This document shows, one piece after another, positions 16,726 to 59,053 of a stretch of 64,000 nucleotides of DNA; the stretch's first letter is position 1, and every line of letters starts with the position of its first letter. The notes below the pieces were generated by a model. That model saw only the letters and a list, made by a program, of their open reading frames with translations, did not search any database and was not told where the DNA came from. A program made the translations under genes and the position numbers. This DNA comes from Bacteroidaceae bacterium (GTDB taxonomy: Bacteria; Bacteroidota; Bacteroidia; Bacteroidales; Bacteroidaceae). The stretch lies in assembly GCA_902362595.1 (NCBI GenBank), contig CABIXF010000005.1, positions 1 to 64,000 of the forward strand, written 5' to 3'.

Positions 16726-16812
16726 GGAAGTTTGGGTGAGTGGCTGAAACCAGCAGTTTGCTAAACTGCCGTACGGGTAACCGTACCGGGGGTTCGAATC
16801 CCCCAGCTTCCG
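16726..16812 (+). tRNA. tRNA-Ser(GCT), copy 1
   Basis: 87 bases with the long variable arm of a class II tRNA. The acceptor GGAAGTT pairs with AGCTTCC, with discriminator G. The anticodon GCT (16760-16762) lies in a 7-base loop TTGCTAA closed by GCAGT/ACTGC. The T-loop is GGTTCGAATCC. CCA is not encoded. It reads AGC/AGU and is identical to the copy at 16921. Confidence 0.97.
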
Positions 16813-16835: not shown

Positions 16836-16908
16836 GGCGCTTTCGTCTAGTGGCCTAGGACGCGGCCCTCTCACGGCTGAAACACGGGTTCGATTCCCGT
16901 ATGCGCTA
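16836..16908 (+). tRNA. tRNA-Glu(CTC)
   Basis: 73 bases, class I cloverleaf. The anticodon CTC (16870-16872) lies in the loop CTCTCAC with stem CGGCC/GGCTG, and the T-arm is ACGGG-TTCGATT-CCCGT. The acceptor GGCGCTT against ATGCGCT contains a G1-U72 pair and a U6-U67 mismatch. CCA is not encoded. It reads GAG. Confidence 0.93.
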
Positions 16909-16920
16909 CTATCGGCTACT

Positions 16921-17007
16921 GGAAGTTTGGGTGAGTGGCTGAAACCAGCAGTTTGCTAAACTGCCGTACGGGTAACCGTACCGGGGGTTCGAATCCCCCA
17001 GCTTCCG
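16921..17007 (+). tRNA. tRNA-Ser(GCT), copy 2
   Basis: An exact 87-base copy of the tRNA at 16726-16812, 12 bases downstream of tRNA-Glu. All three tRNAs are probably cut from one transcript starting at the 16682 promoter and ending at the 17008-17046 hairpin. Confidence 0.97.
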
Positions 17008-53637: not shown

Positions 53638-54411
53638 TTATTTGATGTTCTTTCGGATTTTGGTCAGGTAAGCATGCATGCCTTCCGCGTCTTTCCGGCT
53701 GATGATGTCCAGCAGTTCGTTCAGTTCCGTACGGATACCTTCCACTTGTGCCGGCGTGCGGGGATTGAACAGGATTTCCTGCAAGAGGAAATCGTCTTCG
53801 CTCAGCACGCCTTGGGCGATGGCCATGTGGCGCTTGAAGGTGGTACCCGGAGCATCCTGGTGTTTCATGACGGCCGCAAACACGAAGGTCGATACGAACG
53901 GGATGGACAAGGAGTAGGCCACGGTTTCGTCGTGTTCGTCGAACGTGTATTCAAAGATGTTCAGCTTCAGACGCTGGTAGAGGTCTTTGAAGAAAATCTT
54001 GCCCAAATGGTCGCCTTCCTTGATGATGATGGCGTTTTCGGTGCTCAGTTTGTCGAGGTTGGCAAACGTGGGACCGAACATCGGGTGGGTGGACACGTAA
54101 CGGAAACCGCAGTGCTCGTAAAACTCTTTCAGCCCGGTTTTCACGGAGGCAATGTCGCTGATGATGCAGTCTTTAGGCAGGAGCGGAAGCACCTGGTTGA
54201 ACGCATCGAGGGTATATTTCACCGTGGCGGCATTGATGACCAGTTCTGGCTGGAATTCCTTGATTTCATCCGGTTGGGTAAAACGGTAGCAGTTGTACAT
54301 GAAACGCAGGCGCTGGGGATTTACATCGTACACGGCTACTTCATGTTCAAAACTCAATACATCGGTAAAGAAGGAGCCCATTTTTCCGGCTCCTAAAATC
54401 AATATCTTCAT
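53638..54411 (-). CDS. tyrA: Prephenate dehydrogenase
   Basis: 257 aa. The N-terminal Rossmann fold MKILILGAGKMGSFF binds NAD(P), and STHPMFGPT matches the prephenate dehydrogenase substrate region. It converts prephenate to 4-hydroxyphenylpyruvate for tyrosine. It is the last gene of the pheA-aminotransferase-DAHP synthase/mutase-tyrA operon, 15 bases after the previous gene. No ACT domain is present, so feedback by Tyr is not evident on this enzyme. Confidence 0.9.
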   Translation of the reverse strand: MKILILGAGKMGSFFTDVLSFEHEVAVYDVNPQRLRFMYNCYRFTQPDEIKEFQPELVINAATVKYTLDAFNQVLPLLPKDCIISDIASVKTGLKEFYEHCGFRYVSTHPMFGPTFANLDKLSTENAIIIKEGDHLGKIFFKDLYQRLKLNIFEYTFDEHDETVAYSLSIPFVSTFVFAAVMKHQDAPGTTFKRHMAIAQGVLSEDDFLLQEILFNPRTPAQVEGIRTELNELLDIISRKDAEGMHAYLTKIRKNIK

Positions 54412-54426: not shown

Positions 54427-55497
54427 TTACTTGTTGATGATTTCCATTTGCTGACGGACACTTTCTTCGTGAATCAGCTCGAACACTTGCTTGATGAAGT
54501 CGGGGTCCATTCCGCAGAGTGAGCCTTGTGCGCCTCGCTTGTCCAGAATCTCGTTGTAACGTCCGGTCTGCAGGATGGTCATGTTGTGTTCCTTCTTGAA
54601 GGTTCCGATTTCGCGACATACCCGCATACGTTTGGCCAATATGTCCATCAGTTCGTTGTCACATTCATCAATCTGGCGGCGCAGCTCGTTCAGGTTTTCT
54701 GTGGTCTGGTGTTCTGAACGGATGACGAGCAGGTTCAGGATGTAGTCGAGGATATCAGGTGTTACCTGCTGGGCGGCATCGCTCCATGCACATTCCGGAT
54801 TGCAGTGTGATTCGATGATGAGTCCGTCGAATCCCAGGTCCATGGCCTGCTGGCAGAGCGGAGCAATCAGTTCACGCTTTCCGCCGATGTGGCTCGGGTC
54901 GCAAAGGATAGGCAGATTTGGAATACGGCGACGCAACTCGATAGGGATGTGCCACTGTGGCAGGTTGCGGTATATCTTTTTGTCGTAGGAAGAGAATCCG
55001 CGGTGGATGGCTCCGATACGTTTCAGTCCTGCATTGTTGATGCGTTCCAGGGCGCCAATCCAGAGTTCCAGATCCGGGTTGACCGGGTTCTTCACATACA
55101 CCGGAATGTCCACACCTTTCAGGGCATCGGCAATTTCTTGTACAGCAAACGGGTTGGCAGTTGTACGGGCACCAATCCATACGATGTCCACGTCGGCTTT
55201 CAGGCATTCGTATACATGTTTGGCGGTAGCGACTTCGGTAGCCACGTACATACCGGTTTCTTTTTTCACTTCTTTCAACCAGGAAAGTCCTTCCACGCCG
55301 ATACCTTCAAAGCCTCCCGGTTTGGTACGGGGTTTCCAGATTCCGGCACGGAAAATCTTGATGCCTTTGTCGGCCAAGGCTCTGGCCGTAGTCATGACTT
55401 GCTCTTCAGTTTCAGCACTGCAGGGACCTGCAATGATCAGAGGGCGTTCCTGAGAAACACCTTCCAGTTCGATGGGTAATAAATCCAATTGTTCCAT
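54427..55497 (-). CDS. Bifunctional DAHP synthase/chorismate mutase
   Basis: 356 aa. Residues about 15-260 are a type I-beta DAHP synthase (LIIAGPCSAE, FRAGIWKPRTKPGGFEG, GARTTANPF, AIHRGFSSY, LCDPSHIGGKRE, GLIIESHCNP). Residues about 265-350 are a type II (AroQ) chorismate mutase (NLNELRRQIDECDNELMDILAKRMRVCREIGTFKKEHN). It thus starts the shikimate route and converts chorismate to prephenate. The fusion is typical of Bacteroidetes, where the mutase part can transmit prephenate feedback. Third gene of the aromatic operon. Confidence 0.95.
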   Translation of the reverse strand: MEQLDLLPIELEGVSQERPLIIAGPCSAETEEQVMTTARALADKGIKIFRAGIWKPRTKPGGFEGIGVEGLSWLKEVKKETGMYVATEVATAKHVYECLKADVDIVWIGARTTANPFAVQEIADALKGVDIPVYVKNPVNPDLELWIGALERINNAGLKRIGAIHRGFSSYDKKIYRNLPQWHIPIELRRRIPNLPILCDPSHIGGKRELIAPLCQQAMDLGFDGLIIESHCNPECAWSDAAQQVTPDILDYILNLLVIRSEHQTTENLNELRRQIDECDNELMDILAKRMRVCREIGTFKKEHNMTILQTGRYNEILDKRGAQGSLCGMDPDFIKQVFELIHEESVRQQMEIINK

Positions 55498-55521: not shown

Positions 55522-56712
55522 TTATTTGTTCATAACTGCTTGAATGCGTTTCAGAGCTTCTTCCAGTTGGGGCTCTTTGGCACAAAGCGAAATGCGGATG
55601 TAGCGCTTTCCGTTGCTGCCGAAAATGAATCCCGGAGTGATGAAGACACGGGCTTCGTGAAGGATTTTCTCGGTCAGGTCTTCCACATCGGCGTAAGAGT
55701 CGGGGATACGACCCCACAGGAACATACCTACTTGTTCCGGGTCGAAGGTACATCCTAAGGTGTGCATGATTTCTTCGGCCAGTTTCCGGCGACGTGCATA
55801 GGTATGGATGTTAGCTTCTTCGTGCCATTCTGCACTGTTACGGTAGGCTTGAGCAGCGGCCAGCTGTAAAGGCCGGAAGGTTCCGGAGTCGATGTTGCTT
55901 TTTATCTTCAGAATCCACTGTACGAAGGTAGCATTGGTGCCCAGCATGCCCACACGCCAGCCCGGCATGTTGTGGCTCTTGCTCATGGAGTTGAACTCGA
56001 TGCAACATTCCTTGGCTCCCGGAATGTTCAGGATGCTGAGAGGCTTACGGTTCAGAATGAAGCTGTAGGGGTTGTCATTCACTACCACCAGCTGGTGACG
56101 GTGGGCGAAGTCGACCAGTTTTTCGTAAAGTTCCAGCGTGGCATTGGCGCCTGTCGGCATGTTCGGATAGTTGGTCCACATGATTTTCACCCGGCTCAAA
56201 TCCATCTTCTCCAGTTCGTCGAAGTCGGGTTGCCAATGATTGTCTTCCCGCAGGTTGTAGTTCACGATTTCGCTTCCCAGAATTTTGTTCAGTGAAGTGT
56301 AAGTGGGGTATCCCGGATTCGGAACCAGCACCTGGTCGCCCGGATTGACCAGTGCCAGGGTGACGTGCAGGATTCCTTCCTTGGAACCGATGAGCGGCTG
56401 GATTTCCGTAGCCGGGTCCAGGTCTACGTTGTACCATTTCTTGTACCAGTCGGCCATGGCCTTGCGCAGTTCAGGTATTCCCACAGTAGGCTGGTAGCCG
56501 TGTGCGTCCGGCTTGCGGGCATTTTCGCACAACACGTTGATGGTTTCTTCTGAAGGCGGCATGTCGGGACTTCCGATTCCCAGGCTGATGACGTTCTTTC
56601 CTTCGGCATTCATCTGTGCCACTTCTTTCAGCTTCCGGCTGAAATAATATTCGCTGACACTGCTTAACCGGTTGGCCGGCTCTATTTTATATGGTTGATT
56701 CTCCTTCTGCAT
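55522..56712 (-). CDS. PLP-dependent aminotransferase of the aromatic operon
   Basis: 396 aa, fold-type I class I/II aminotransferase. PLP site motifs: the Lys in NSMSKSHNMPGWRVGM, NYPNMPTGA, VVNDNPYSF and a C-terminal RISLCAKE Arg. Its placement between prephenate dehydratase and DAHP synthase/mutase suggests it transaminates phenylpyruvate and 4-hydroxyphenylpyruvate. The sequence also resembles LL-diaminopimelate-type aminotransferases, so the name is left general. The start at 56712 overlaps pheA by 26 bases, so the genes are translationally coupled. Confidence 0.9.
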   Translation of the reverse strand: MQKENQPYKIEPANRLSSVSEYYFSRKLKEVAQMNAEGKNVISLGIGSPDMPPSEETINVLCENARKPDAHGYQPTVGIPELRKAMADWYKKWYNVDLDPATEIQPLIGSKEGILHVTLALVNPGDQVLVPNPGYPTYTSLNKILGSEIVNYNLREDNHWQPDFDELEKMDLSRVKIMWTNYPNMPTGANATLELYEKLVDFAHRHQLVVVNDNPYSFILNRKPLSILNIPGAKECCIEFNSMSKSHNMPGWRVGMLGTNATFVQWILKIKSNIDSGTFRPLQLAAAQAYRNSAEWHEEANIHTYARRRKLAEEIMHTLGCTFDPEQVGMFLWGRIPDSYADVEDLTEKILHEARVFITPGFIFGSNGKRYIRISLCAKEPQLEEALKRIQAVMNK

Positions 56713-57529
56713 ATTCTCCTAAAATTTTAAGTGCTTTGGTTAATGGCATGACTGCATCAATGGATTGTTTGTATCTCAGATAATCGTTGAACAAGACGTC
56801 CACGTAGAACAGGTATTCCCATTCCCTTCCGATGATGGGCAACGATTGTATTTTGGTCAGGTTGATGTGATAGAATGAAAAGATGGACAACACCTGCGAG
56901 AGGCTTCCTTCGCTATGTGGCAATGAAAAGACGATGTTGGCTTTGTTGATTTTCGAACGGTCTTTCAGTTCGTCGGCCATCCAGGGGTCGCATACCACCA
57001 GAAAGCGGGTGAAATTGTGCTTGTTGGTCTCGATGCCTTCCTGCAGGATTTTCATGCCGTAAAGTTCGGCGGCATACTTGGAGCAGATGGCGGCATGTCC
57101 TTTCAGACCCTTTTCCTTGATGTCGCGTGCGCTGCCTGCGGTATCTTCCGTTTCCACTACTTTCAGCTGCGGGTGATGCTGCAGGAAATCCCGGCATTGT
57201 GCCAGTGCCACCGGATGGGAGTTGACTTCGGTCAGTGTGCTCCAGTCTTCTCCGGGCAGGCACATGATGCTGTGGCTGATGCGTAGTTTGTGTTCTCCGA
57301 TAATCGTTGCCCCGCTGTCTCTGAGCAACTCGTAATTGTGAAGGAGGCTTCCGGCAATCGTATTTTCAATGGCAATCATTCCGATGACGCTGCTGTCTTT
57401 CCGAAGGGTGTCGAACACGTCTTCGAACGTATTACAGCAAATCAGTTCGATTTCCTCGTCCTTGAAAAACTTATGGGCTGCGATGTCATGGTACGAGCCC
57501 GGAACTCCTTGTATGGCTATCTTTTTCAT
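56687..57529 (-). CDS. pheA: Prephenate dehydratase
   Basis: 280 aa. The prephenate dehydratase domain (1-185) has IQGVPGSYHDIAA, the family's IENTIAGSL and the catalytic Thr in HNFTRFLVV. A C-terminal ACT domain (about 200-275) follows. The usual ACT feedback motifs GALV and ESRP appear as GSLS and QSLP, so Phe inhibition may be altered. There is no fused mutase; that domain is on the DAHP synthase. First gene of the operon. An attenuator (leader peptide and terminator) lies between its promoter and start. Confidence 0.93.
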   Translation of the reverse strand: MKKIAIQGVPGSYHDIAAHKFFKDEEIELICCNTFEDVFDTLRKDSSVIGMIAIENTIAGSLLHNYELLRDSGATIIGEHKLRISHSIMCLPGEDWSTLTEVNSHPVALAQCRDFLQHHPQLKVVETEDTAGSARDIKEKGLKGHAAICSKYAAELYGMKILQEGIETNKHNFTRFLVVCDPWMADELKDRSKINKANIVFSLPHSEGSLSQVLSIFSFYHINLTKIQSLPIIGREWEYLFYVDVLFNDYLRYKQSIDAVMPLTKALKILGEYAEGESTI

Positions 57530-57548: not shown

Positions 57549-57581
57549 AAAAAAAGTCCCGCTCCATGGAAGCGGGACTTT
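57549..57581 (-). terminator. Attenuator terminator in the pheA leader
   Basis: On the minus strand the perfect 11-bp stem AAAGTCCCGCT/AGCGGGACTTT with a 7-base loop is followed by a seven-U run. It lies 20 bases before the pheA start and after the Phe/Tyr leader ORF, so it can stop transcription before the structural genes. Confidence 0.92.
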
Positions 57582-57608
57582 GTATTATCATTTCAATTTA
57601 ATTTTTTC

Positions 57609-57698
57609 TTACCGTATGCATGCAAACTCCCGCTTCACTTCATTGCTAAAGTAAAAGAAATAAAAGTAAAAGAAGAAGTAAGATGCAAATGTTCTCAT
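57609..57698 (-). CDS. Phe/Tyr-rich leader peptide of the aromatic operon
   Basis: 29 codons plus stop. Starting MRTFAS, it has an unbroken run of 11 aromatic residues (YFFFYFYFFYF, residues 7-17), followed by SNEVKREFACIR. In total 9 Phe and 4 Tyr of 29 residues. The ATG is about 31 bases downstream of a -7 box. The role is regulatory: ribosome stalling at these codons during Phe or Tyr shortage would expose the segment 57624-57636 to form an antiterminator. This ORF is not part of any larger gene on its strand. Confidence 0.88.
   Translation of the reverse strand: MRTFASYFFFYFYFFYFSNEVKREFACIR
57624..57636 (-). promoter_or_regulatory. Antiterminator arm inside the leader ORF
   Basis: On minus, GAAGCGGGAGTTT can pair with AAAGTCCCGCTTC (57569-57581), the 5' arm of the terminator, at 12 of 13 positions. 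It covers leader codons 20-25, downstream of the aromatic run. A ribosome reaching the stop codon would mask it and let the terminator form; a ribosome stalled on Phe/Tyr codons would leave it free. Confidence 0.82.
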
Positions 57699-57728
57699 AT
57701 TCTTGTTATTTTGTTGTTATTTCTGCTG

Positions 57729-57736
57729 CAAAAGTA
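57729..57736 (-). promoter_or_regulatory. -7 box of the aromatic operon
   Basis: TACTTTTG on minus. A TTTG lies 18 bases upstream, slightly short of the usual 19-21 spacing. Transcription would start near 57722, giving an untranslated leader of about 190 bases that contains the whole attenuator. Confidence 0.7.

Positions 57737-57883: not shown

Positions 57884-59053
<1,170 letters not shown>

Follow-up and report, generated by a model that had tools for sequence, protein, structure and literature searches.

In the pheL/pheA system of Escherichia coli, a leader peptide with Phe codons precedes a terminator located before pheA, and an alternative antiterminator can form in the leader; pheL controls pheA alone. 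Attenuators of the ilvGMEDA type use one leader with codons for several products of the operon. Leader-peptide attenuation needs a ribosome close behind RNA polymerase. In Bacteroidota, translation initiation is mostly independent of Shine-Dalgarno sites, and to our knowledge transcription-translation coupling has been little studied in this phylum. For Flavobacterium psychrophilum, structured elements in the 5′ regions of pheA and hisG have been described, together with strong indications that amino-acid operons are preceded by leader-peptide attenuators; the pheA element also occurs in other Flavobacteriaceae (PMC9723704). That element shares phylum and gene with the locus described below, differs from it in class, and is presented in the parts of the report compared here without leader sequence or pairing. 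Also, small open reading frames (ORFs) reminiscent of leader peptides were described in Bacteroides thetaiotaomicron, the pheA operon being unnamed in the parts of that report covered here (PMC7366714), and the main text of a wide attenuator survey contains neither the string 'Bacteroid' nor 'pheA' (PMC2965389). Among the papers listed by searches of the open-licence PMC literature, no description of a Bacteroides pheA attenuator was found.

The DNA analyzed here, referred to as the window, is a stretch of 64,000 nucleotides from a Bacteroidaceae bacterium (contig CABIXF010000005.1). It carries pheA followed by genes for an aminotransferase, a DAHP synthase/chorismate mutase fusion and tyrA, all on the minus strand, and a single leader unit in front of pheA (Table 1). 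The gene upstream of the leader starts at 57884 on the plus strand and is divergent from pheA; therefore, the terminator in the leader is not the transcript end of this neighbor, and this possibility was ruled out. Elsewhere in the window, three consecutive tRNA genes are located at 16726-16812, 16836-16908 and 16921-17007, of which the first and the third score identically and may be duplicates.

Table 1. Features of the pheA leader and the genes behind it, in window coordinates
Feature	Position	Strand	Basis or remark
-7 promoter box TACTTTTG, Bacteroidetes-type	57729..57736	minus	matches TAnnTTTG
Leader peptide ORF, 29 codons, MRTFASYFFFYFYFFYFSNEVKREFACIR	57609..57698	minus	ATG to TAA; kept in 78 of best 80 loci
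Aromatic run YFFFYFYFFYF, codons 7-17, candidate stall codons	57648..57680	minus	all Phe or Tyr
Hairpin P1 5′ arm = final three aromatic codons TTT TAC TTT	57648..57656	minus	invariant in 79/79 leaders
Hairpin P1 3′ arm	57633..57641	minus	shares four bases with antiterminator segment
Antiterminator segment (segment 2), GAAGCGGGAGTTT	57624..57636	minus	12/13 complementary to terminator 5′ arm; co-variation
U-G step outside helices, candidate RNA polymerase pause site	57619..57620	minus	U 79/80, G 72/80
Terminator 5′ arm (segment 3)	57569..57581	minus	pairs with 57565-57553
Terminator 3′ arm (segment 4) and U tract	57549..57565	minus	stem with segment 3, seven U
pheA, prephenate dehydratase	56687..57529	minus	PF00800
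Aminotransferase	55522..56712	minus	PF00155
DAHP synthase fused to chorismate mutase	54427..55497	minus	PF00793 and PF01817
tyrA, prephenate dehydrogenase	53638..54411	minus	PF02153 over its cut-off

Re-reading of the sequence recovered the -7 box of the initial annotation on the minus strand, which we take to be of the Bacteroidetes-type consensus TAnnTTTG (57736-57729), and the 29-codon ORF with its aromatic run was confirmed base for base. The terminator stands where it had been placed and has its seven U's (57555-57549), which overlap the A-U end of the stem; the stem of 11 bp given for it was a slight undercount, as the arms 57581-57569 and 57565-57553 form 12 Watson-Crick pairs out of 13 plus one U.G around the loop CAT. 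It does lie before pheA, with 19 instead of 20 bases between its end at 57549 and the pheA ATG at 57529. As annotated, segment 2 is complementary to the 5′ arm of the terminator in 12 of 13 positions; dinucleotide shuffling of the leader gave a match this good in 1 of 20000 cases. The leader (57728-57530) has a folding z of -3.6. The element resembles enterobacterial pheL/pheA in its leader with Phe codons, its terminator before pheA and its alternative antiterminator; unlike in pheL, the run mixes Phe and Tyr in front of an operon making both amino acids, and segment 2 lies inside the ORF or, in some relatives, abuts its stop codon. Like the ilvGMEDA type, it combines codons for different products of its operon, and it differs from that type in the amino acids, the phylum and the RNA. 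None of the Rfam families matched the leader at the gathering threshold; the best of 4227 families was RF01859 (Phe_leader) with 34.8 bits and an E-value of 2e-4 over the full model length, which falls short of the cut-off of 55 bits.

To compare the leader with those of relatives, GTDB genomes were searched for PheA, and the best 80 loci, from Bacteroides and Phocaeicola as well as from related MAGs of rumen and gut, were inspected. Of these, 78 have a complete leader in which 8 to 11 out of 11 residues are aromatic (F, Y or W); one of the two exceptions, L067, has only 37 bases upstream of pheA. In L055 (337-482), the stretch with the start codon is lost and run, segment 2 and terminator are kept, which may be a deletion or an assembly fault. 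In 78 of 79 relatives, the motif TAnnTTTG occurs no further than 110 nt upstream from the start codon of the leader, versus 6.8% of mononucleotide shuffles. According to a motif scan of the window and of the 79 loci for which upstream sequence is available, the distance between segments 2 and 3 is 53 to 76 bases. The ORF ends after segment 2 in 59 of 79 leaders and just before it in the other 20, and these two designs are two ways in which a finishing ribosome would cover segment 2. In the alignment across Bacteroides and Phocaeicola, which the initial annotation had proposed, run, segments 2 and 3 and terminator recur.

A broader sample was obtained from 295 Bacteroidales genomes, of which 84 were matched by the leader covariance model at E <= 0.01 and 126 had a detectable PheA. 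From these 126 genomes, 117 loci were used, many of them fetched first via a match to model R1 and the others via the presence of PheA, while nine were left out (not fetched, or with an unrecognised pheA start). A leader was defined by an ATG, at least six F or Y in nine residues and a distance of at most 400 bases from pheA, a threshold set after the first 80 loci; L067 as well as L119 and L120 (duplicates of L115 and L113) were dropped before counting. By this definition, an ATG leader was found in 104 of the 117 Bacteroidales loci compared with 19 of 2320 shuffles, and in 16 of 25 loci of a draw from the phylum compared with 6 of 500 shuffles, the latter draw being non-random (40 of 138 PheA genomes fetched, half of them from the top of the score ranking; a pheA start was recognised in 25). 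Among the 13 Bacteroidales loci without an ATG leader at threshold within 400 bases, three carry a leader with a GTG start and one (L164) has only 15 bases upstream. By one identical rule, a terminator was detected in 143 of 145 leader units and in 8 of 429 shuffled regions. A short ORF rich in codons for the products is hence present here by sequence and in most sampled relatives, and both the aromatic run and the pairing, which the initial annotation had expected to be kept in related genomes, were found conserved. Model R1 also gave weak second matches in B. fragilis, P. oris and P. vulgatus (E 0.07 to 0.73) and, in L096, L118 and L150, matches at contig edges with no gene behind them.

For the analysis of co-variation, 42 leaders were picked for diversity from the best 80 loci, with cells counting sequences and not independent events. 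The antiterminator helix pairs in 91.8% of cells compared with 87.3% in shuffles and at most 52.1% in slid controls, and it contains 19 cells with a double change compared with 9.3 +/- 3.3 in shuffles. Of these 19 cells, 16 fall in one pair, which switches between groups from A-U (22) to G-C (16), 2 in a neighboring pair and 1 in L035. Two of five measures fail to exceed the shuffles in the 42 leaders, namely the number of pairs with a double change (reached by 52 of 500 shuffles) and the number of pair types (reached by 467 of 500), and the double changes lie nearly all in one pair and are common within clades. Segment 2 is clade-specific, with GAAGCGGGA, GACGGGGTTTTA, GGGGCTGG, CCGGGTT and others, and segment 3 is altered to match. 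Its pairing with the own terminator arm exceeds the mean of the arms of 40 other loci in 139 of 143 units, and exceeds shuffles with p <= 0.01 in 101 and p <= 0.05 in 126 of the 143 units. By these comparisons, antiterminator and terminator keep matching while both change. The mutually exclusive antiterminator postulated initially agrees with all three lines, i.e. the 12/13 match in the window, the co-variation and the own-versus-cross pairing in relatives.

Since run, antiterminator match, terminator and the relation of codon content to operon content recur and change together in relatives, as the logic of ribosome-mediated attenuation put forward in the initial annotation would have it, the pheA leader is very probably a ribosome-mediated transcription attenuator, predicted to admit polymerase when charged tRNA-Phe or tRNA-Tyr is scarce. 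RNA polymerase would likely pause just past P1, thereby giving the ribosome time to start. With plentiful Phe and Tyr, the ribosome would cross the aromatic codons and cover segment 2 or, in the relatives with a short ORF, stop directly before segment 2 and thereby cover it; segment 3 would then pair with segment 4 and transcription would end before pheA. With Phe or Tyr in short supply, the ribosome would halt in the run, upstream of segment 2, so that the emerging segment 3 could pair with segment 2 and the terminator could not form in time.

In equilibrium folding of the full leader, the terminator came out ahead at each ribosome position that was tried (P 0.94-0.97; -20.0 against -14.9 kcal/mol), and as long as segment 4 has not emerged, the antiterminator formed even without a ribosome (P 0.96). 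The proposed switch must therefore rest on the kinetics of hairpin choice. The 5′ arm of hairpin P1 is formed by the invariant last three aromatic codons, the F/Y codons further upstream being variable. P1 pairs in 92.9% of cells, with zero pairs changed on both sides. It is conserved, yet compatible with the antiterminator in the predicted fold; a role as strict anti-antiterminator was therefore rejected, which leaves for P1 no more than a possible function as pause hairpin. The pattern G-10 Y-1 G+1 is a pause pattern of RNA polymerase. Downstream of segment 2, at the U-G step outside the helices, this pattern is fitted by 77 of 80 sequences versus 10 of 320 sites shifted by 20 to 35 bases, a weak control because the shifted sites are poorer in G. 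From this, we infer that P1 and the U-G site constitute a candidate RNA polymerase pause. The conserved UAUGUGU-like stretch past segment 2 (57620-57619) is accounted for by no helix and, in relatives with a short ORF, by no codon.

The initial annotation had noted that the mixture of Phe and Tyr codons fits an operon making both amino acids, and the relatives bear this out, with Tyr gone from the run where pheA stands alone. The median Tyr fraction is 0.42 for the 126 leaders whose pheA is joined, or at least not identified as lone (some joined leaders being Tyr-poor as well with 0.11-0.25), 0.14 for the 6 leaders of lone pheA and 0.56 for the 12 leaders of operons lacking pheA, two of which belong to a single locus. 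In 5 of 128 pheA leaders (L124, L125, L127, L190, L192), the best 9-residue window contains no Tyr, and all five precede a pheA whose next gene lies outside the operon, presumably ilvD in L190 and L192. In a scripted evaluation of 60 long loci, all fetched via a match to model R1 and including the two duplicates L119 and L120, 54 have another operon gene at most 600 bases behind pheA, 3 have no room for one, and the only 3 with an unjoined pheA have Tyr-free leaders; in the shorter loci, whether pheA is joined was judged by eye from the positions of the genes, with some contexts not covered. A sixth lone pheA (L177, genome G105) has a sub-threshold leader that carries Phe in its run and a single Tyr elsewhere. 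As L124/L125 and L190/L192 look like sister pairs, the independent cases of lone pheA number about four, and the Tyr-free leaders appear to form about three lineages; like pheL, these leaders precede a lone pheA.

In genomes with a split operon or no detected PheA, matches of the covariance model away from pheA mark leader units before the aminotransferase gene (L093, L097, L100, L142) or before tyrA (L126, L153). Operons with tyrA or the aminotransferase and without pheA have leaders of their own, several of them Tyr-rich, and the leaders of tyrA operons without pheA in L259 and L262-L264 are mixed and not Tyr-rich. No leader was found at the pheA genes lying apart from the operon in L160, L218 and L204, nor in L216 and L217, where the separation was judged only by the distance from tyrA and the DAHP synthase gene. 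As a natural experiment, the split-operon cases support codon sensing.

The same data bear on other explanations of the leader. A nascent peptide might arrest the ribosome in the manner of TnaC and sense free Phe or Tyr instead of a shortage of charged tRNA, a model that has the leader ORF and the stalled ribosome in common with attenuation. Arrest peptides keep specific residues in fixed positions, whereas here mainly the aromatic content is kept and composition tracks operon content; in addition, arrest by abundance would have the wrong sign for a biosynthetic operon, and we consider this model very improbable. A shade less probable still is that the ORF makes a functional small hydrophobic peptide, with the terminator acting as an unregulated brake: the peptide sequence is well conserved among Phocaeicola, but the order of F and Y, the run length and the tail all vary, Tyr vanishes from the run where pheA stands alone, and the tail tracks the RNA pairing (VKRE with GAAGCGGGA, VERE with GAGCGGGA, absent in the short form). 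Control of the terminator by a T-box, a riboswitch or an RNA-binding protein, with an incidental ORF, would leave a terminator and antiterminator looking alike, and it is judged just as improbable as the peptide, since an F/Y run is present about 100 times above chance by the shuffle comparison of the 117 loci and T-boxes and riboswitches were rejected, being absent from the Rfam matches to the leader both at the gathering threshold and in the list at E <= 10.

In a further arrangement, two leader ORFs lie in series before pheA, with starts 105 to 260 bases apart; like hairpin P1 and the split operons, this doubled form goes beyond the initial annotation. It was observed in 24 of the 117 Bacteroidales loci (L101, L109, L113, L115, L121-L123, L131, L134, L143, L146, L151, L152, L156-L158, L172, L186, L189, L194, L201, L213-L215), several of which are close relatives, L113, L115 and L121 among them, and in 1 of the 25 loci of the phylum draw (L219). 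Both terminators were found in 23 of the 24 doubled Bacteroidales loci, L134 being the exception, and in L219. In 21 of those 24 loci with both terminators, each unit pairs better with its own terminator than with that of its neighbor, the exceptions being L146, L158 and L201; some of the margins are small. Tandem attenuators with two leader ORFs in series are known from the Salmonella mgtCBR operon (PMC3641672). According to the parts of that report compared here, mgtCBR senses ATP and proline, whereas both units of the Bacteroidales loci are of the Phe/Tyr kind and stand before an aromatic amino acid gene. The doubled Phe/Tyr leader of the relatives is thus likely a new form of tandem attenuator; for doubled units as well as for codon retuning upon operon splitting, no description was found among the open-licence PMC papers listed.

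Taken across the order, we hold with moderate confidence that Phe/Tyr attenuation in Bacteroidales is modular. The same unit would stand before whichever aromatic operon a genome has, and its codon mix would be retuned when the operon is split, giving a Phe-only run for lone pheA and Tyr-rich runs for several tyrA or aminotransferase operons. The doubled loci, about a fifth of those sampled, would through their private stem codes represent two ribosome checkpoints, each read independently, which polymerase would have to pass one after the other, with a steeper response than one attenuator.

Candidate leaders were also seen before other amino-acid operons in six Bacteroides/Phocaeicola genomes each. 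A His-rich leader precedes hisG in 6 of 6 (L310-L315), about 279-354 bases before the HisG match, with runs from HRHHH to HHHHHH (longest MRTVITHHHHHHPGE, weakest MNITITHRHHHYSIE). An Ile/Val/Leu leader with a run of the LAVLHIIRVVV type precedes ilvD in 5 of 6, at -272 to -287 from the IlvD match in L322, L323, L325 and L326 and at -1180 in L327, where the offset is probably wrong because the locus was cut short; by the run criterion, none was found before ilvD in L324. Short ORFs that contain WW or WWW and resemble one another in their tails lie at the locus edge in 5 of 6 loci (L317-L321, not L316), about 1420-1470 bases upstream of the TrpE match, and are probably trp operon leaders. Leaders of thr operons were found in none of 6 loci, an unfair test, as the 1500-base flanks probably begin inside the long thrA frame. 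Judged from the runs in their ORFs, the His, Ile/Val and Trp leaders make it likely that leader-peptide attenuation is general in this group.

The conserved aromatic attenuator, together with the His and Ile/Val leaders, may provide ready-made reporters of transcription-translation coupling in abundant gut commensals. Also, codon-specific sensing would find a natural test in the split-operon cases, and the doubled units would form a natural cascade. If it operates as predicted, the attenuator tells how gut commensals sense their supply of Phe and Tyr.
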